From a virus, in IMG/VR virus record IMGVR_UViG_3300025120_000503, positions 1 through 25,006 of that record: a stretch of 25,006 nt of DNA. One strand, written 5' to 3'. The translations under genes and the position numbers were made by a program. Numbering within the stretch: position 1 is the stretch's first letter; each line of letters opens with the position of its first letter. The notes under the pieces are model-generated. The model did no database searches and was not told where the DNA came from. It saw only the letters and a list, made by a program, of their open reading frames with translations. This document shows positions 10,301 to 22,817 of this stretch, one piece after another.

Positions 10301-12033
10301 GTGGATTTAAAACTCTTAACACCTGCGCGCCTAATTTTAATTCGGCCACCGGTGAATATGATTACTTAAGTACAACTTTATCTGGTGCTATATCATTAAA
10401 TCAAACTATACAAGATAGTAATGGCGTATTTATAGTAAAAGGTCAGACTGATGTTAATGGAGTACCTTCAGATTTTGTTAATGATATTAGAATATTAGAG
10501 GACGGTACTTATGGATCAATTAAGTTTAGAATACCTGATGTGGTAGGTGGAAATCAATATGAAATTGGTGGTATTGTAGACGTCGTAGATTCCAATACAT
10601 TCAGGGCTAGTTCGTTTACAGTAAACGGTTTTCAGCTGAATGTACCTTCTTCAACACCAGGAAATGGTGATATGAAATCTGCTACTTATACTATTAGTGA
10701 TGGTGGATATTTACAATTTCAAAATCGATTAAACTCTGCTAGCTTTGGTGAAATATTTGATGCAGTTAATCAAGGTAACCCAAGCATTATTTATGAAACT
10801 ATTAAAGCTGATGGGTCACAGGTTAAAAATACTGATGGTACTCTTGCCCAAACTTTTATGATTGAATTAAGAGCACAGTCAGATATACTTAAATCAATAT
10901 ATGTAGGAGTATTACCAGACCCAGCAAAACCAACTGCGTTTAACTTAACAGATGTGGTAGGCTACGATTTATCATTACAAAAGACTCCTAGAATAACACC
11001 TATAGCTAGACATGCTGGCTACTATTCTCCTTATGCATTGCCTTTGCTTTCATTTAGAGATCCTTACCAAAATATAGATTTTGATGTAACAGGTGGAATT
11101 GATGATGAGGATTATAAATTAAAAGTAATGGAATTATGTAAATATAAAAATTCTCAATTCAATAGTAATGATCCAAAATTTGGACAAATACAAAATTTCT
11201 TTTATCATAAAGTAAATGAGGAAGACCCATCTACCGTTTTAGAGTTATCAAGAGAAAGTGCATTCCCTAGTTTATATCCATTAATTAATGAAATAGGAAT
11301 TGATTACAAAAACTTTTATGCATTTTCTTCTAATTGGGAACCTTCATATTTTACTAAGAGTATTGATAAATCCCAAACAGAAAAAATTATTGGAACTAGA
11401 TCTATGTTTGAAAGAAAATCATTTTTTGGTTCTAAATATTTAAAAGTGCCAGAAAGAATTATTTTAGACACGTTTAAACCAAGCCCTTTTGTAAAGGCTG
11501 CAATTAGACAACCTGATTTAATAGATGCTACATTTATGTATCAAGACCAAGCATCAGTAACAGTTAACCAAAGAATTATACAATCTGAGGGAGTTGCTAC
11601 TAGGCGAGCTATTAGTAAAAAACCATCAGCTCCGGTAGTTTCATTTTATTTATTTAATCAAAAAAGATTAATGGAATATTTATTTACTCCTATTAAAAAT
11701 CAATTTTTAAAATATGTTAACGAGGCTTATGGGTTTGGTGATTTAGAAACTCTTGATGATGATGTTAATCAGTACATAAAAGAAAACATATTAAAACTCT
11801 ATAAAGTAGAAAGAGTAGATTTTTATACATTAGCAAGTAGAATTAAAGAACCATCTACTTTTACTACCGCTGAGTTAACTGATGCAGAAAAAATTAATAA
11901 TGGATTAACTATTAATAGTAATGTATCATCAAAAACTTTAAATACAAACCTATTTGATTTAAAGCTAATATATAATAAAAGAACAGGTTTCTCTGAATCA
12001 TTTGGTTTCAGTGTCACTATAGTTAAAAAATAA
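7321..12033 (+). CDS. Giant virion structural protein (1570 aa), probably tail or baseplate
   Basis: This is the largest gene in the window. It starts MAENLFDKASYSLVRTNPKL and has no membrane span or signal sequence. It is rich in aromatic residues, asparagine and aspartate, with many short Y/F-x-D and N-Y-F motifs spread along the length, giving the look of a multi-domain beta-rich virion protein. I could not identify catalytic motifs, a peptidoglycan-hydrolase domain or an obvious long coiled coil. The start is supported by the stop at 7275, the A-rich leader and the ATATATAA element at 7297. It sits between another giant structural protein and the collagen-like fibre gene, with 10 nt to the latter. 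A baseplate or tail-spike scaffold role is likely from context and size; no family is recognised. Confidence 0.7.
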   Translation: MAENLFDKASYSLVRTNPKLTGNVKIVSDGTDIYLESFSANTRLSSQKFKAFKVNGSDTYDQDVFRFFDFGKFPLESAYEIFQEYEDTAVLSNYRNQYEMFYCAGTRSIASESYPQSLGTLAPLWLNEQIPNYFVIFRLDNPAAVNNFRAETENANTQDAQTSAKFSKNVLENCTAIKTFDLTEGTALGSYIRNYRNQETFPEVPLNITWRKDEPILWNGISYKSGGFTSAGNFAYKDMIVKDSTIIQDEYLFTQGFQNNGILLANLLNLEFLFDDPTADDYSINRYFGMYVNDIEEGQFDISGEAFFKGTSAEKTQQPTITTVDEVSQYLNTPFKLTNENGILLYLDPLKTEAITGVPTPARVNEVESIFYVKDKEDDFHTIKKGSTWDTDQIRLFDTEVDISLFTGYKEPDTFANASIINRAGVAQMYIKVLDNVQEGSKISFYDGVGFTGSIFADSTMAPVVGKSFERFYNPNGTLQEVAQSITSAINKGINENDRFFVASYNDTTVYVKSRFSGTRFNRIGFEMDIQFPEQFNQLETYPITSLADPSKKFVGGNDTKNSLLKVTLGDQDRFEKGNFVQTTGGYATIGDWVPYTDEPIYDGFDRIIGYTDINKYAIITCNDNQIMITRSNQVALYSDYKPSFGRFSFFEVRDFDFDFYSTLYSKEGELAFEEAEYNQLASNAVPPFTINDYVGVSKNPQIRNFYDNGGFYNLIGLLNDAEDQNPNDEYVKSEYIRLEENFLTSQAAISRIAPYINKWAWVNDGKDVRNHPYRLDVNEAFGLNNFAPSKWDKSQEASGYTHEWYYLSQFPEYFTNDAIENSWSYSVNSPVDNTPANIITGQSLVLGTFQDVTKNYFNDYFVVQKFDFGGGQIVEIDRQLRYGRFDGGNEKNFSQTFLRGVRVIAKAKAKGNEKPNFDARSLAYVQNGEFNDYRFSVMMVPNLPNKPEFEIKFIKNEKWKTVVMLISINYAVECLNDKTKSIIDRTSLYSLNSGFKTLNTCAPNFNSATGEYDYLSTTLSGAISLNQTIQDSNGVFIVKGQTDVNGVPSDFVNDIRILEDGTYGSIKFRIPDVVGGNQYEIGGIVDVVDSNTFRASSFTVNGFQLNVPSSTPGNGDMKSATYTISDGGYLQFQNRLNSASFGEIFDAVNQGNPSIIYETIKADGSQVKNTDGTLAQTFMIELRAQSDILKSIYVGVLPDPAKPTAFNLTDVVGYDLSLQKTPRITPIARHAGYYSPYALPLLSFRDPYQNIDFDVTGGIDDEDYKLKVMELCKYKNSQFNSNDPKFGQIQNFFYHKVNEEDPSTVLELSRESAFPSLYPLINEIGIDYKNFYAFSSNWEPSYFTKSIDKSQTEKIIGTRSMFERKSFFGSKYLKVPERIILDTFKPSPFVKAAIRQPDLIDATFMYQDQASVTVNQRIIQSEGVATRRAISKKPSAPVVSFYLFNQKRLMEYLFTPIKNQFLKYVNEAYGFGDLETLDDDVNQYIKENILKLYKVERVDFYTLASRIKEPSTFTTAELTDAEKINNGLTINSNVSSKTLNTNLFDLKLIYNKRTGFSESFGFSVTIVKK

Positions 12034-12043
12034 TAGAAAAGAA

Positions 12044-15019
12044 ATGCCAATCACTATAAAAGAAATAATAGCATCGGATACTATTTCACAGCTAGTCGAT
12101 AAAACAAATTTTAATTTCGACCAATTGTTACTTAATGGTGGAGGGCCACTTGGGCCAGCTGGCGCCATAGGACCAGTTGGACCTGCTGGTGGTAGAGGGG
12201 AAAAAGGAACCACATGGTATGATGGTACAGATAATCCAAATGTTACTGCCCCTACTGCAAATCCATTAACGAGTGATTATTATTTACAAGATAGCGGAAC
12301 TACACCACCTTCAGCAGGAGACGGTGATGTTTGGGAATACACTGGATTAACTTGGACTAATACTGGTATTAATATCCTAGGCCCTGTTGGACCGCAGGGT
12401 GCAAGTGGAGGTTTTGGAAAAGAATTTGGTGGACCGGTCCAGATAACTAAGCAAACCGCAAGATATAATGGCCCTATTGGTTTAGGTAATGGTGCAACAA
12501 CAGGTGCTGGTGGTAATGAAGGAGTACCGTCTGTTATGATAGGTGGTGTAGTTTCTAATACACAGCAACTTACAGGAATTCCACTTACTGCTGCATACGT
12601 AATACCAGATACTATAGCCACAACATTAATTTCTACAACTGCATCATTAATGATTCATCAAAAAGATTCTTCTGCAAGAGGAATAATATTTCATGGAGGT
12701 AATGCAGCAGGTAATAATGATAAATTTGAGCAAAACTCAATTGGACAATTAAGTGGTATTTTTATTGGCACAGATGATAAATTAGTATTAGATGTACCAA
12801 AGGTAGCAACTACACCAACACAACAAACCGACTTAATTGGATTTGAATTAAATGTTCCTAACCGTAGCCACGTGTATACAGCAGGTAAAGAAATTTCATT
12901 TCAAACAGGAACTAATAATTCTCAGCTAGTAGGTACAGAAAATTCGAACTTTTCAATAAATGTAGGAAATGGATCTAATGCAGGTGGTAATAAATTTGCC
13001 GTTTCAACTTCAGGAACCTCAGGTTCTTCACTTTTGGAGATGGGTGCAGGTTTTACTGATGTATCCACAACTGCAAGAGTTGGTGAATTTCAAGTGCAAG
13101 CAGGAAAGATTAATCTTGTAACATCAGTTAACCAACCAATACACTTAATGAGTGGTGGATCGATACTATTATCAACGGTAAATGGGAGTAACCCAACAGG
13201 AGCAATTACTAATGCAACTACAACTGGTGCATGGCGAGTAAATACTTCAGGTGGTGCTATTTCTTTAAACCAAAATAGCACCACCGCTACCAGTACCATT
13301 ATAATTTCAAACCTTTCAACAGTGAATGGTGGTGATGTTAGAATACAGGGTAGAAGACTAATAGTATTAAAGAATTCGGCCTTAACTTCATTAGAAGCAC
13401 CTAGTATAGTTATTGACCAAACAGGTACTATTACAAACCCACAACCGTTTACTAGGTTTGTAGGAAAACAAACAATTTCAGATACTGGTTTAAGTGGTAT
13501 TACTTATCCAGGAACTTCTCATAATACACTTATATATAAAGAACCTGAAACGGTAGTATCAACTGCAAATTCAATAATGGAATTAACAGGTACAGCAGCC
13601 AATATTGATTATGCACCAGGTATATTTTTACAAGCATGGACCGGTGGTACACAATCAGTATCAGGTGTTAGTGCTGGCTTATTAGCAATTAACTTAGGAC
13701 AAGAAGGACCGGTATCACCGGTTACTGCAGGATATGAAAGATGGGATAATTCATTAGGGTTTGGTGTAAGAAACAGCGCTAATAATAAAGATTATTTTAA
13801 TGCCAGCGCAGCAAAAATTGGAATAGCAACACCTATGGTATTTAAAAGATCAAACATTTTAAATACTTCAATTAATAGCAATCCATTTAATGTTCTCCCA
13901 CCAGGTGCACAAAGTGCAGCCGCTCCATTAAGTTTTGGATGGAATACATATCAAACCAATGGTCCTACTGCACCAACAAATAATACAGTTTCAGCCGGAA
14001 TGCCAACTACTGCCCAATTAGATGTACCGTTTATAAGTTTAAATTTCGGTCCTGGGTTAGGCCATTGGGAAGGCGGAGGGCAGACTCTAGGTAATACCAA
14101 TTATGACTATACATTTAATTTTCCAATTGGAGCTTACCCAGGCCAAAGGTTAACTGTTAAATTTTATCAACAAGCATTACAATGGTCTCAAATTAATCCA
14201 TCTACTGGGTTCCCACAAACATTTGTAAATAATGGAACAATTAGAATTAGGTTTCCAAAATATAGATTAGCGGTACCTTCAACAGCCGCTTTCACCCAAT
14301 GGTGGCAAGAGGATTCTGTAAATACCGCACCGTTTCTAGTTACACCGGCATACCAAGAAATATCATTAGGTCCTGCAGGAGATGCTGTTAATGGATCTGG
14401 TATTTTTAGAATGCTTGATTTAATATGGGATGGGCAAACCATACAGCAACAAGGCGCGAATCTTAATAATTCACCTTCTGGTGTATCAACGCGAACCCAA
14501 CATGGCTGGGCAATATTAAATGACTTTACTAGTACCTTCCAGATTCAGGGTATACAGACTGCTGGGTATTCGACAGTAAGTACATGTTTTATTGCAGGAA
14601 CAAAAGTTACAATGTCTGATAGAAGTATTAAGAATATTGAAGATGTTAAAATTGGAGATGAAGTATTAAGCCAATCAGGTGTAAATAAAGTATTAAGTTA
14701 TGATAGACCTACTTTAGGAATTAGAAAGTTGTATTCATTTAATGGTGGAACTGCATTTGTAACATCTGAGCATCCATTTATGTCTACCGATGGATGGAAA
14801 TCTATTGACCCTTCTAAAACAGCCGAAGAAAATTCAGATCTTATTGTAAGTATGTTAAAAGTTGGTGATGAAATAATAACTGAATCTAAAACAATTATTA
14901 TTAATAGCATAGAAGAACATGATGGAGATAGTAACCAAACATTATATAACTTTGAACTAGACGGTGATAAGACTTATTACGCAGATTCATATTTAGTACA
15001 TAATAAACAAAACAACTAA
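12044..15019 (+). CDS. Collagen-like tail fibre protein with C-terminal Hint (autoprocessing) domain (991 aa)
   Basis: Residues 1-30 resemble the N-terminus of the 213-aa protein encoded at 586 (MPITIKEIIASDTIS, then an N-F-N-F motif), probably the virion-attachment end. Residues 34-55 are collagen-like G-X-Y triplets (GPLGPAGAIGPVGPAGG), then a W-Y-D-G spacer, a segment of the DYYLQDSG...GDVWEYTGLTW type often found with phage collagen repeats, and a second short GPVGPQGASGG run (113-123). Residues ~130-847 are a long beta-rich shaft/head region full of S, T, G and N. From Cys848 to the end (144 aa) is a Hint domain: CFIAGTKV, then SEHPF with His910, and a terminal YLVHN. Receptor-binding or shaft function is inferred; the Hint domain should cut before Cys848 and release the fibre body. 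The start ATG lies 10 nt after the preceding stop. Confidence 0.85.
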   Translation: MPITIKEIIASDTISQLVDKTNFNFDQLLLNGGGPLGPAGAIGPVGPAGGRGEKGTTWYDGTDNPNVTAPTANPLTSDYYLQDSGTTPPSAGDGDVWEYTGLTWTNTGINILGPVGPQGASGGFGKEFGGPVQITKQTARYNGPIGLGNGATTGAGGNEGVPSVMIGGVVSNTQQLTGIPLTAAYVIPDTIATTLISTTASLMIHQKDSSARGIIFHGGNAAGNNDKFEQNSIGQLSGIFIGTDDKLVLDVPKVATTPTQQTDLIGFELNVPNRSHVYTAGKEISFQTGTNNSQLVGTENSNFSINVGNGSNAGGNKFAVSTSGTSGSSLLEMGAGFTDVSTTARVGEFQVQAGKINLVTSVNQPIHLMSGGSILLSTVNGSNPTGAITNATTTGAWRVNTSGGAISLNQNSTTATSTIIISNLSTVNGGDVRIQGRRLIVLKNSALTSLEAPSIVIDQTGTITNPQPFTRFVGKQTISDTGLSGITYPGTSHNTLIYKEPETVVSTANSIMELTGTAANIDYAPGIFLQAWTGGTQSVSGVSAGLLAINLGQEGPVSPVTAGYERWDNSLGFGVRNSANNKDYFNASAAKIGIATPMVFKRSNILNTSINSNPFNVLPPGAQSAAAPLSFGWNTYQTNGPTAPTNNTVSAGMPTTAQLDVPFISLNFGPGLGHWEGGGQTLGNTNYDYTFNFPIGAYPGQRLTVKFYQQALQWSQINPSTGFPQTFVNNGTIRIRFPKYRLAVPSTAAFTQWWQEDSVNTAPFLVTPAYQEISLGPAGDAVNGSGIFRMLDLIWDGQTIQQQGANLNNSPSGVSTRTQHGWAILNDFTSTFQIQGIQTAGYSTVSTCFIAGTKVTMSDRSIKNIEDVKIGDEVLSQSGVNKVLSYDRPTLGIRKLYSFNGGTAFVTSEHPFMSTDGWKSIDPSKTAEENSDLIVSMLKVGDEIITESKTIIINSIEEHDGDSNQTLYNFELDGDKTYYADSYLVHNKQNN
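12143..12208 (+). repeat. Collagen-like G-X-Y repeat
   Basis: Seven consecutive G-X-Y triplets (GPL GPA GAI GPV GPA GGR GEK, then G) near the N-terminus of the 991-aa fibre protein. Collagen-like stretches in phage fibres make trimeric shafts. A second, shorter run (GPV GPQ GAS) lies at about 12380-12409. Confidence 0.85.
14585..15016 (+). other. Hint (hedgehog/intein-type) domain coding segment
   Basis: Residues 848-991 of the fibre protein. Block A is CFIAGTKVTMSD with the nucleophile Cys848 right after a Ser-Thr. Next comes KNIEDVKIGDEVLS, the typical I-x-D-I/V-x-x-G-D-x-V-L strand. Block B is VTSEHPFMSTDGW with the T-x-x-H-P signature (His910). The end is YYADSYLVHNKQNN, where V-H-N (His986-Asn987) matches the intein C-terminal block. 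The residue after Asn987 is Lys, not Cys/Ser/Thr, and only four residues follow, so protein splicing is unlikely. N-terminal cleavage at Cys848, as in bacterial intein-like domains, is what the motif set predicts. Confidence 0.85.
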
Positions 15020-18452: not shown

Positions 18453-19007
18453 ATGATATTAAGCGCAAGAAATAACCAGTTTAAATTTGACTTTCCCAGA
18501 AATTTTATACCTGAAGAAATAGCTAGTAAGTATAAACCGTTTCTTACAAGAATTCCAGGTGGGCTAATCAAAGAACCTATTGATTATTGGAATTATGGAA
18601 TACAGTCTCTTAATTTACCAGGGCCTTCATTTGATGCTGTCACACAAGTAGATTATCCAGGTAACCAACGTGCGTTTAGATCTAGTTTACCAAAGCAACA
18701 ATTGTTTGATAAGACTATGACTGTTACAATGCAAGCATTTGATGGGTATGTTAATTATTGGATGGCTGTTGAGATGTTTGATTATTATTATAAATTAAGC
18801 GGAAAGCACCCTTATTTACCAGAAGGGGTTGGTGTACAAATGTTAGATGCTGATGGTACTGTATTTGTAACAGTTCAACTTAAAGATATGTTTATTACAG
18901 AAATAGGTGCATTGGATCTAAACTTCTCAAGTAACACTATAGAGTTTCAAACCTTTGACGTTACATTCGGATATAACATCTTAGATGTAGCAGTTAACAT
19001 AAGCTAA
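18453..19007 (+). CDS. Tail-tube-fold (gp19-like) structural protein (184 aa)
   Basis: The 184-aa protein is close in size to T4 gp19 (163 aa). Order of features: a short N-terminal strand (FKFDFPRNFIPEE), a loop (NLPGPSFDAV), then a strand-helix block (DKTMTVTMQAFDGYVNYWMA, EMFDYYYKLSG). After that comes V-F-V-T-V-Q-L-K-D-M-F-I-T-E-I, and finally LDLNFSSNTIEFQTFDVTF ending G-Y-N-I. Strand, helix, long strand pair and a final 'x-T-F-D-V-T-F-x-Y' strand is the pattern of phage tail-tube proteins and tube-initiator domains (gp19, gp48, gp54). Whether it is the major tube protein or a baseplate tube initiator cannot be told here. The gene directly precedes the candidate promoter at 19007. Confidence 0.5.
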   Translation: MILSARNNQFKFDFPRNFIPEEIASKYKPFLTRIPGGLIKEPIDYWNYGIQSLNLPGPSFDAVTQVDYPGNQRAFRSSLPKQQLFDKTMTVTMQAFDGYVNYWMAVEMFDYYYKLSGKHPYLPEGVGVQMLDADGTVFVTVQLKDMFITEIGALDLNFSSNTIEFQTFDVTFGYNILDVAVNIS

Positions 19008-19031: not shown

Positions 19032-19388
19032 ATGAAAACCTTTAACGATTATTTAACTGAGAATAAAGAAGAAGCTTTAAACATACAAGATTTATTAAAT
19101 GAATCTCATGATTTAACAGAAGAACAGGATGCTGCAATTGATATGGCAGTTGAAAGAATTCTCGAGGCTCAAAAAGAAGGTAAGAATTTAGAAGACTGTG
19201 TTGAAGAAATAATCAACGAAGGTTTATTAGGAAGTATATTTGGTGGTCTAACTGGATTTGCATTAGGAAAGACTATAGGTAAAGCAGTAGCTAAAGTATT
19301 AGGTGTTACTAAAGGTGCTCTTTATGATTTATTAACCTCACGTCTTGTAGGTGCTGCGCTAGGTGCAGTTATCGGCAAGAGAATATAA
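19032..19388 (+). CDS. Putative internal head protein: T4-like capsid-targeting N-terminus, glycine-zipper C-terminus (118 aa)
   Basis: The first ten residues (MKTFNDYLTE) align position by position with the capsid-targeting sequence of T4 internal proteins, MKTYQEFIAE. That sequence routes proteins into the prohead and ends where the gp21 protease cuts, after Glu. Residues 11-63 are acidic and helical and contain further L/I-x-E sites (after E24, E30, E44 and E63). From Gly64 the protein becomes a glycine-zipper, hydrophobic, cationic segment of 55 aa (GLLGSIFGGLTGFALG, then KTIGKAVAKVLG and LVGAALGAVIGKRI). It has about six net positive charges and no signal peptide. Cleavage at INE63|G64 would release this segment. 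A head-packaged, membrane-active protein ejected with DNA is the inference; a plain membrane protein or core peptide is the alternative. The RuvC-like gene follows after 5 nt. Confidence 0.55.
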   Translation: MKTFNDYLTENKEEALNIQDLLNESHDLTEEQDAAIDMAVERILEAQKEGKNLEDCVEEIINEGLLGSIFGGLTGFALGKTIGKAVAKVLGVTKGALYDLLTSRLVGAALGAVIGKRI

Positions 19389-19393
19389 TTAGA

Positions 19394-20053
19394 ATGATTC
19401 ATATAGGAATTGACTTTTCATTAAATAGCCCAGGTGCCTGTGTTGAAACAGCCGATGGTAAATATCACTTTATAACTTTTTTTAATTACGGAAATCGTAT
19501 ATGGGATGAAGAAGGTAGAAAAATACCTAAAGCATTTAGTATACATAAAGAATTAATGGATGATAACGCTTTATTAGGATTTCCTTATAATAGACAAGTT
19601 ACAAGTAAAGAGTTTTTACCTAGGGAGAGGCAGAAGTTAGAGGATGCTGGAAATATTAGCTCACTTATGGTTAATATATTTTCAACATTATTTGAAGGTG
19701 ATAAAGTAGCAGTTGCACTAGAAGGATTTTCATATGGCTCCAAAGGTAATTCATTTATAGACATAATTCAATATAATACATTTTTAAGAAAGGAATTAAT
19801 AGATAAGTACTCTATAGAAAATTTATCTGTATTTCAACCATCTCATGTAAAGAAGTTAGCAGGTAAAGGAAATGCTAATAAACATTATATGGCTAAAGCA
19901 TTCCAAGATGATGTACTTAATGATAAGAACCTAAGGAGCACTAAACTTTGGAAATGGACTCAAGGAAAAGACTTCAGCATTAAAATACCTAAACCTATCG
20001 ATGACATCGTTGATGCCTATTTTATACTTAAAGCCCTAAAGGCTAACAATTAG
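19394..20053 (+). CDS. RuvC-like Holliday-junction resolvase (RNase H fold)
   Basis: The 219-aa protein starts with an RNase H-fold strand HIGIDFSLNSPG (Asp7), has a second acid in VALEGFSYG (Glu110), and ends with a helix bearing PIDDIVDAYF (Asp203/204 and Asp207). These are the D...E...D-x-x-x-D positions of RuvC-type resolvases. The Ser-Pro-Gly after the first strand is the usual loop. It would cut four-way junctions formed during recombination-dependent replication before packaging. T4 itself uses endonuclease VII (gp49) for this; in this phage the role may be taken by a RuvC-type enzyme, as reported for other marine T4-like phages. It may also be a related phage RNase H-fold nuclease. 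Start ATG follows the previous stop by 5 nt. Confidence 0.7.
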   Translation: MIHIGIDFSLNSPGACVETADGKYHFITFFNYGNRIWDEEGRKIPKAFSIHKELMDDNALLGFPYNRQVTSKEFLPRERQKLEDAGNISSLMVNIFSTLFEGDKVAVALEGFSYGSKGNSFIDIIQYNTFLRKELIDKYSIENLSVFQPSHVKKLAGKGNANKHYMAKAFQDDVLNDKNLRSTKLWKWTQGKDFSIKIPKPIDDIVDAYFILKALKANN

Positions 20054-21525: not shown

Positions 21526-22599
21526 ATGGCAACAGAAGTAATAATATCTTCTGAAATGAAAGCTCGGATCATTGATAAGGTGGTCCGAGTTCTTCATACT
21601 AATCATACTCATCCAGAAAAAAGAAGATTACTGGAGAGTAAAGGTAGGCTAAATTTTGCATGCCCTTATTGTGGGGATTCACATGATAATGTTAGAAAGA
21701 AGAGGGGTAATCTTTATTGGAATGATTTATACTTTCACTGTTATAATTGTTCAGCTCATGCATCCTTAGATGTTTTCTTAGCCGAGCATAATCAAAACTT
21801 TGAAGGAGATGATAGAATTGACGTAATTAATTATATTAAGGAAAATCGTAAACATTTTTCTTTAGGCGAAAATTTAGATTTTTATTTATTTGATAAAGCA
21901 AAACAATTAGCATTAACCTTTGATGAAATAGCTTTAGGTTTTAATGTTTATCCAATTAATACTTTAACTTACCAAGCATATCCGTATTTAAAGAGTAGGT
22001 TGCTCCATCATAAAACTGAAAGATTTGGTTTTGACCCAAGACGTAGAGAACTGTATGTTTTTAATTTAACACCTGAAGGTAAGATATTAGGATTTCAAAC
22101 TAGAGACCTAGGTGGTAGCGGTGGTCCTAAATACAAAACATGGAACATAGAAAGAATCTATGATAGGCTAAAGTTAAAATTAAATGTTAATGAAGAAGAG
22201 CTAGATAATTTAAATAAAATATCAATGTTATTTGGTATCTTAACAGTTGATATGGCTAGAGACTTTTCTATATTTGAAGGTCCTATTGATGCAATGTTTA
22301 TGAATAATTCAATTGGATTAACCGGTGTAAAAAAACAAATAATAGAATTTAATGAAATACCTACAGCAAGATATTTCTTTGATAATGATATGGAAGGTAA
22401 AACCAGAATGATTGATAAATTAAAAAGTGGCCAAACTGTATTTATGTGGGATAAGTTTTTAAAAGATTTTGATATTCCATCAAGAAAGGTTAAAGATTTA
22501 AATGATTTAGTTAAATGGGAATACAGTAATAGATCTGGGTGCTTAGGTGACTTGGATAAATATTTTACAAAAGATTCATTAGATATTATTTTTATATGA
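21526..22599 (+). CDS. gp61: DNA primase, T4 gp61 family (zinc ribbon plus Toprim)
   Basis: The 357-aa protein is close to T4 gp61 (342 aa). Residues 46-75 are a zinc ribbon: CPYCGDSHD (Cys46, Cys49) and YFHCYNCSAH (Cys72, Cys75). A DnaG-like core follows: LGFNVYPIN, a YLKSRL segment, then R-R-E-L-Y-V-F-N, GKILGFQTRDLGG and PKYKTW. The Toprim domain has EGPIDAMF (Glu251, Asp255) and YFFDNDMEGK (Asp286, Asp288), plus KDLNDLVKW near 323. Metal-binding acidic residues and the four Zn-ligand cysteines are all present, so it should be active. It would make RNA primers for lagging-strand synthesis together with the replicative helicase, which is outside the window. The stop overlaps the next start (ATGATGA). 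Confidence 0.9.
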   Translation: MATEVIISSEMKARIIDKVVRVLHTNHTHPEKRRLLESKGRLNFACPYCGDSHDNVRKKRGNLYWNDLYFHCYNCSAHASLDVFLAEHNQNFEGDDRIDVINYIKENRKHFSLGENLDFYLFDKAKQLALTFDEIALGFNVYPINTLTYQAYPYLKSRLLHHKTERFGFDPRRRELYVFNLTPEGKILGFQTRDLGGSGGPKYKTWNIERIYDRLKLKLNVNEEELDNLNKISMLFGILTVDMARDFSIFEGPIDAMFMNNSIGLTGVKKQIIEFNEIPTARYFFDNDMEGKTRMIDKLKSGQTVFMWDKFLKDFDIPSRKVKDLNDLVKWEYSNRSGCLGDLDKYFTKDSLDIIFI

Positions 22600-22817
22600 T
22601 GAGTTTAAAAAATTATAATAATTTTGTGAGTGAAGAAGTAGATGACTTTTATAGAGACTTGGAAAATAGTAATAAGAGAATAAAATTATTTGCTACATTT
22701 AGTAAATCTGAATTATCTCAAGTTAAAACTAATTTTTCTATACCAGTACCTAAAAAGAAGTTTCAGCCTAAAGTAAAGGGCTTTAAAAAGATTAATAATG
22801 ATAAAGGTATATTTTAA
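22596..22817 (+). CDS. Small protein with capsid-targeting-like N-terminus (73 aa)
   Basis: Start codon ATG 22596 overlaps the primase stop; a second ATG three bases later (22599) is equally possible. The N-terminus reads LKNYNNFVSEE, which aligns with the T4 capsid-targeting sequence (K-x-Y-x-x-F-I/V-x-E) and ends in a V-x-E protease-like site. The rest is basic and lysine-rich (PVPKKKFQPKVKGFKK), suggesting nucleic-acid binding. It sits between primase and uvsY in the replication operon, which is an unexpected place for a head protein. If the CTS call is right it may be packaged into the head; otherwise it is a small basic protein of the replication operon. The function is unknown. Confidence 0.55.
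   Translation: MMSLKNYNNFVSEEVDDFYRDLENSNKRIKLFATFSKSELSQVKTNFSIPVPKKKFQPKVKGFKKINNDKGIF

Follow-up and report, generated by a model that had tools for sequence, protein, structure and literature searches.

The window analysed here, a 25,006-base viral record from IMG/VR, encodes a 118-residue protein that we interpret as the precursor of a head-cargo protein in a huge phage related to T4, an account that, taken whole, has in our estimation an even chance of being right. The precursor consists of a T4-type capsid-targeting sequence (CTS), an acidic pro-region and a glycine-zipper C-terminus (Table 1), and the strand opposite positions 19,032-19,388 is stop-rich and has no open frame. By its predicted gene content, the phage belongs with the T4-related group: the immediate neighbours encode gp19/tail-tube-like and RuvC-like proteins, and GroES, gp32, UvsY and UvsW-type genes lie further downstream of the latter. 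The gp19/tail-tube-like gene is also a conserved neighbour of the homologue in LR756500.1, a 462-kb uncultured huge phage, and in the relatives L235 and L236. Head genes are absent from the window itself, a fragment of 25 kb. A (G)ATATATA stretch immediately 5' of the start codon is conserved within the 50 bases upstream of most homologues.

Table 1. Positions in the window of the 118-residue precursor, its parts and nearby genes
Feature	Positions	Strand	Basis
Whole gene, 118-residue precursor (CTS, acidic pro-region, glycine-zipper C-terminus)	19032..19388	+	Open reading frame; ATG start, TAA stop
CTS of T4 type (MKTFNDYLTE), residues 1-10, with cleavage predicted after E10	19032..19061	+	Conservation; match to T4 IpII
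Pro-region (residues 11-63), acidic with net charge -13 and many L/I-x-E motifs	19062..19220	+	Charge; shuffle test
L22-N-E24, best-conserved internal L/I-x-E site	19095..19103	+	Conservation; loop in AlphaFold model
I61-N62-E63/G64 junction	19212..19223	+	E63-G64 invariance; helix break at 63/64 (AlphaFold)
C-terminal glycine-zipper domain, residues 64-118, net charge +6, predicted helices	19221..19385	+	Charge; zipper; AlphaFold
gp19/tail-tube-like protein, upstream gene	18453..19007	+	phrog_45 tail tube, E 5.5e-9
RuvC-like resolvase, downstream gene	19394..20053	+	phrog_159, E 1.9e-11
Second CTS-like gene of the window, MMSLKNYNNFVSE plus 60-residue tail, basic C-terminus	22596..22817	+	N-terminal pattern common to ~16 marine homologues

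The capsid-targeting tag

The original prediction, made from the window alone, held that the protein begins with a near copy of the T4 CTS, and comparison with the propeptide of T4 IpII (MKTYQEFIAE) bears this out. Our IpII reference is 100% identical to GenBank X04567 over residues 1-86, and the feature in that entry is annotated as a precursor of AA -10 to 90 with a propeptide of -10 to -1. The first 10 residues of IPIII are enough for packaging in T4; mutagenesis of the same protein shows that targeting depends mainly on residues 4 and 7 and processing on residues 8 and 10, with Asp at position 10 blocking processing but not targeting (PMC9026906). The window's protein has F4, Y7, L8 and E10 at these positions, and all four are unchanged in 52 distinct coding sequences in which positions 5 and 9 vary; residues 2-4 were fixed by the regular expression used to collect this set, and other samples free of that bias agree. 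In favour of the original prediction, conservation of the tag extends to marine homologues at 50-99% identity, in which the key residues are invariant or more than 90% conserved. More distant members begin with MKTYEEFINE, MKTYLEYINE, KTFIDFINE or VKTFEDILKE, and two homologues carry Asp at position 10. F4 and Y7 are missing from the Lak, L235 and L236 members, so the case for head targeting of these proteins rests on their genomic context.

Similar tags are also in excess across whole genomes. We counted the motif [FY]xx[FYL][LIVFM]xE within the first 10 residues of non-overlapping ATG-initiated reading frames against its rate at inner positions, and found 24 N-terminal tags in LR756500 where 2.8 were expected, and 5 in each of three marine contigs (0.09, 0.19 and 1.1 expected). 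The motif was defined after the first proteins had been seen and its exact form is thus post hoc, although that choice could not account for an excess of the size seen in LR756500. Taken together with the features described below, the tag makes it very probable that the 118-residue protein is targeted to the phage head.

Candidate cleavage sites in the pro-region

T4 gp21 cleaves after L/I-x-E (PMC9026906). Five such motifs are present in residues 1-63 of the window's protein and none in residues 64-118; among 33 sequences, the pro-regions contain 142 (71 expected by shuffling) and the C-terminal domains 3 (5.4 expected). This enrichment in the pro-region is specific both for Glu and for a spacing of 2, the count for Asp at spacing 2 being 0.52-fold. 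Of the acidic residues of the pro-region, E24 and E63 alone stay Glu throughout 40 diverse homologues, and these two sites differ at P3, where Leu or Ile precedes E24 in 38 of the 40 sequences, E10 in 34 and E63 in only 12; Thr takes the P3 position of E63 in 20 of 32 representatives.

These counts bear directly on the junction. An I-N-E/G site does sit at the domain boundary in the window, as had been claimed, and the E63-G64 pair is invariant down to LR756500 and Lak; what is not conserved is the Leu or Ile that the T4 rule places at P3. The exact cut at Gly64, as originally proposed, is therefore less certain than head targeting or proteolysis, and to treat E63 as the sole or principal scissile bond is over-specific, E24 being the better fit to the T4 rule. 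Moreover, the invariance of E63-G64 could be structural, because Thr occupies P3 in most representatives and the AlphaFold model breaks its helix at this point. On the basis of motif conservation we consider it probable that the precursor is trimmed by a protease, with cuts likely after E10 and E24, the second of which would yield a 94-residue product; whether a cut also occurs at E63 seems to us evenly balanced. Rates of polymorphism, in a sample dominated by close relatives, are consistent with this arrangement: pN/pS is 0.075 in the CTS, 0.016 at the junction and 0.19 in the C-terminal domain, and 0.29 in the pro-region, where it reaches 0.44 for residues 11-24 and 0.23 for residues 25-60. 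Selection retains the tag, the junction and the C-terminus, and the spacer directly after the tag is freest, which is the profile of a precursor.

The invariant junction falls exactly between the tag and pro-region on one side and the membrane-like domain on the other, a position that would also suit a tether between prohead and membrane. The CTS and acidic part would then lie in the prohead core and the zipper C-terminus in the host inner membrane at prohead initiation, and a cut at E63/G64 would free the prohead, leaving the peptide in the producing cell and not in the virion. T4 proheads are indeed built on the inner membrane and released by gp21 proteolysis, and uncut SPN3US proheads remain attached (PMC9026906). 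The membrane attachment of T4 itself, however, employs gp20 and YidC, the conserved E24 site would part the CTS from the domain anyway, and the more distant members lie amid other tagged genes, as cargo would. We judge a tethering role unlikely, but it is the foremost competitor of the cargo account and deserves to be taken seriously. It had been left out of account in the original prediction, of which the CTS, the junction and the protease have stood and the Gly64-specific cut is less well supported.

The glycine-zipper domain

The C-terminal 55 residues are, as predicted, cationic and glycine-zippered, and they are free of Glu. Glycines 67, 71, 75, 79 and 83 are spaced four apart, and further glycines stand at positions 107, 111 and 115; when the 55 residues were shuffled, chains of at least five such glycines came up in 0.8% of cases. 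The opening stretch, residues 64-82, is hydrophobic and non-amphipathic (mean Eisenberg hydrophobicity 0.58, moment 0.03), and residues 79-91 are amphipathic and lysine-rich. Kyte-Doolittle peaks reach 1.2-1.45, under the usual transmembrane cut-off of 1.6, so that the description "membrane-active" is plausible but unproved by the sequence. AlphaFold, run with 40 sequences (mean pLDDT 73, pTM 0.65), predicts helices at residues 53-63, 65-90, 96-101 and 104-117, the second of which would be long enough to span a membrane. The modelled domain fits a glycine-zipper membrane hairpin of moderate hydrophobicity, and we put the insertion of the product into a membrane at about half probable. Pfam and PDB sequence searches with the 118-residue protein gave no significant match, Foldseek searches against PDB and BFVD gave no fold match at E <= 0.001, and no significant match to known membrane or ejection families was obtained.

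The moderate hydrophobicity could also point to a CTS-tagged internal head protein whose C-terminal hairpin is not membrane-active. Such a protein might form a soluble zipper bundle, associate with DNA, with a shell protein or with a portal protein, or act on a host target after injection as T4 IPI does, and its main cut would be at E24, the best L/I-x-E site, to leave the 94-residue form. The moderate conservation of residues 25-60 is compatible with this idea, as are the conserved lysines, given that T4 internal proteins touch DNA through lysines (PMC3012670). Nevertheless, the chain of five GxxxG-spaced glycines with a second GxxxGxxxG, together with the non-amphipathic hydrophobic start and a predicted helix of 26 residues, would be unusual in a soluble protein, and the invariance of E63-G64 also stands against it. 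A non-membrane role of this kind has, we think, only a small chance of being correct.

Relatives, proteases and genomic surroundings

IMG/VR contains 550 relatives of the 118-residue protein, and a query with the C-terminal domain brings in more divergent ones. When 50,697 phage records were searched by tblastn (E up to 10), the only significant matches among those listed (the best 40 of 134) were LR756500.1 (52% identity) and Prevotella Lak megaphages (35-40%); Klebsiella phage matches at E 0.7-4 were discarded as chance. GTDB genomes yielded no relative, so the family is viral and not of the host, and a near-identity DNA search of cultured phages gave no match. As judged from these searches, its members are carried by huge or large phages, both in the sea and in the gut. 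No significant PHROGs family of known function was recovered, and matches to two profiles of unknown function, phrog_22557 (E 6e-4) and phrog_5453 (E 1.5e-4), were taken as compositional and set aside. The family is thus previously without annotation, yet widespread.

A gp21-type protease, on whose presence the original prediction depended, is encoded by relatives: Peptidase_S77 scores above its cut-off in G001, LR756500, Lak-B5 and Lak-C1. G001 is a 181-kb marine relative with a 90%-identical homologue, and its protease (phrog_207 head maturation protease, E 2.3e-40) is encoded between the genes for a portal-like protein and the major head protein (phrog_138). A tagged 356-residue protein, starting MAKLKTYSEFLNE/G, is encoded directly after the major capsid gene of G001. 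The most distant relatives include L235 and L236, in which the homologue stands at the head of a gene cassette with several products that begin MKSLxxYLxE/A. In Lak-C1, the gene after the homologue has an LFDD tag, a divergent neighbour has a tag of LY(E/N) type, and about 4 kb separates the homologue from the protease. The surroundings vary by lineage and, from their gene content, appear to remain head-cargo-like. A motif of the major capsid protein's N-arm, NVNGMGxxSxP..GSGDxP, is also present in the pro-regions of L235, L236 and L244, and its recurrence in non-capsid proteins may mark an additional type of head signal. A non-capsid protein of G002 (11423-11815) has a variant of the capsid N-arm motif, NVQSMGNATLPGNPG..GSGD. 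Adjoining the LR756500 homologue (locus L082, 20380-21231), a 283-residue protein (P0002) with an acidic N-terminal half combines LEE/GIGTIAKKVAHGSKK with a cationic, Gly-rich hydrophobic segment, an architecture like that of the 118-residue protein; searches of Pfam and PHROGs gave no match to it.

An ordinary membrane protein of the infected cell, unpackaged, of superinfection-exclusion or holin-like function and with a CTS-like start by coincidence, would accord with the small size, the glycine-zipper hairpin and the location between tail and DNA-metabolism genes, but is very unlikely in view of the conservation at residues 4, 7, 8 and 10, the genome-wide excess of similar N-terminal tags, the invariant protease-type glutamates, the adjoining cassettes of tagged genes and the failure of Pfam and PHROGs searches to match a holin or exclusion family.

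Proposed mechanism and relation to known systems

In the head-cargo account that we favour, the CTS would bring the precursor into the prohead core, where the S77 (gp21-type) protease of the phage would cleave L/I-x-E sites at the predicted loops around E10 and E24, and probably also the invariant E63/G64. Until trimmed or destroyed, the acidic pro-region would hold the cationic glycine-zipper domain soluble and off membranes. The protease-proof hairpin would then remain in the head, exit with the DNA and enter the inner membrane of the next host, its most likely role being passage of the genome through that membrane. Head targeting and proteolysis are well supported by the CTS, the S77 protease in relatives, the tag enrichment, the invariant Glu residues and the tagged surroundings; against the account, the gene adjoins tail and DNA-metabolism genes and lies outside the head operon. 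That the protein is packaged, cleaved, ejected and inserted into a membrane, and what it does there, we infer from sequence, and it is the glycine zipper that suggests membrane action and ejection; ejection with the DNA could, in our view, equally well occur or fail to occur. A broader proposal, which we put forward tentatively and with some doubt, is that the heads of Lak, LR756500 and marine huge phages contain a membrane peptide activated by proteolysis, which its acidic pro-region would silence until the E/G cut is made within the sealed head and which would then accompany the genome, opening or crossing the host inner membrane, and that this peptide would be one conserved member of a larger set of tagged cargo.

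How the DNA of long contractile-tailed phages passes the inner membrane is poorly understood, and a conserved head-tagged zipper product, shared by hundreds of marine phages and the Lak megaphages of the gut, would provide a small, concrete candidate for this step. A search of the open-access literature gave nothing on Lak virion proteins or on phage glycine zippers in DNA ejection.

The closest parallel is provided by the internal proteins of T4. Like IPI, IPII, IPIII and Alt, the window's protein has a tag of about 10 residues with aromatics at positions 4 and 7, a hydrophobic residue at 8 and Glu at 10, and it shares with T4 internal proteins a small cationic product, L/I-x-E sites and a gp21-type protease, encoded here in relatives. 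It differs from them in its long acidic pro-region with further sites, and from IPI, a folded nuclease inhibitor, in the glycine zipper of its C-terminus. No homology to the mature parts of IPI, IPII, IPIII or Alt was seen among the tblastn matches listed (the best 40 of 134 from the 50,697 phage records), and mature parts of CTS cargo are usually not shared (PMC3012670). Apart from such homology, and from the L/I-x-E rule at the Gly64 boundary, which fits the window but only 12 of 40 homologues, the defining features that can be examined in sequence agree, and the 118-residue protein appears to work like a T4 CTS internal head protein.

Ejection proteins of the giant phages phiKZ, 201phi2-1 and SPN3US have long propeptides with redundant Glu-x sites and an S77-type protease (PMC9026906, PMC5694885), and propeptides of this kind are chopped and lost (PMC9026906). 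The long propeptide of the window's protein, with its redundant Glu-x sites, resembles theirs, although their cleavage motif is S/A-x-E (phiKZ) or A-x-E (SPN3US) and no sequence match to these proteins was obtained. To our knowledge, giant-phage ejection products include no glycine zipper. The proposed exit with DNA and insertion into a membrane recall the conduits formed by P22/T7-type ejection and tape-measure proteins, but the 118-residue protein is far smaller than these and has a T4 CTS; a search for such homology gave phrog_167, a tape-measure profile, at E 0.53 as the best sequence match, which is not significant, and no fold match at E <= 0.001. Finally, the GxxxGxxxG repeat and two-helix hairpin are like those of Gly-zipper_Omp (PF13488) and Rick_17kDa_Anti (PF05433), whose members, unlike this viral protein, are bacterial envelope proteins; the Pfam cut-offs for these families were missed (17.6 vs 25 bits and 15.0 vs 24.2 bits, respectively).

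Other tagged proteins

The tag also offers a route to reading head cargo of uncultured huge phages from sequence, with about 20 tagged proteins in LR756500 and, in Lak-C1, two further families of tag. The LR756500.1 proteins (loci L086-L095) have a T4-like tag of consensus MKYIKEYEEFLLE/A, examples being those at 198758-199531, 180972-181730, 313382-313912, 317088-317720 and 200318-201793. A PNK3P phosphatase, a DUF2201 metallopeptidase/VWA-like protein and LRR proteins are among the members, a number of which also have the C-terminal motif NADDFGFFDN in common, and the group has the look of packaged effectors. Use of the marine/T4-type CTS by Lak phages was rejected, the motif being found 3 times in Lak-C1 against 2.2 expected. 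Two Lak-specific N-terminal tags, unlike that of T4, are instead candidate head-targeting signals by their positional bias: LYE.[ILM], within starts such as MNKKALYEAIMRDISKIVKKKINE, occurs 11 times (0.7 expected), and E[SN]LFD occurs 9 times in first residues and 0 times elsewhere. The corresponding families in Lak-C1 (MK250029.1, loci L125-L153) follow the patterns KALYExIMxxISKxxKxxINE and IKxLxESLFDDxDD, with examples at 448487-449098, 488343-488723, 358040-358330, 1557-2606 and 151442-152827, and the second pattern is borne by apparently LRR/BspA-like proteins.

Two CTS-tagged homologous proteins of ~420 residues (L091, 22941-24206; L115, 925-2196), for which Pfam and PHROG searches gave no match, have conserved GG(A/S)xGHxxHPFxD, EKxDG and ARNKG motifs reminiscent of nucleotidyltransferases/ligases. 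Within the window, positions 12044-15019 encode a long structural protein that opens with a collagen-like GPxGPxG stretch and has a C-terminus, CFIAGTKVTMSDRSIKNIEDVKIGDEV..VHNK, similar to a Hint/intein-type domain. The second CTS-like gene of the window is kept between primase-like and UvsY-like genes across many marine relatives, and the basic tail of its product terminates in KKINNDKGIF.
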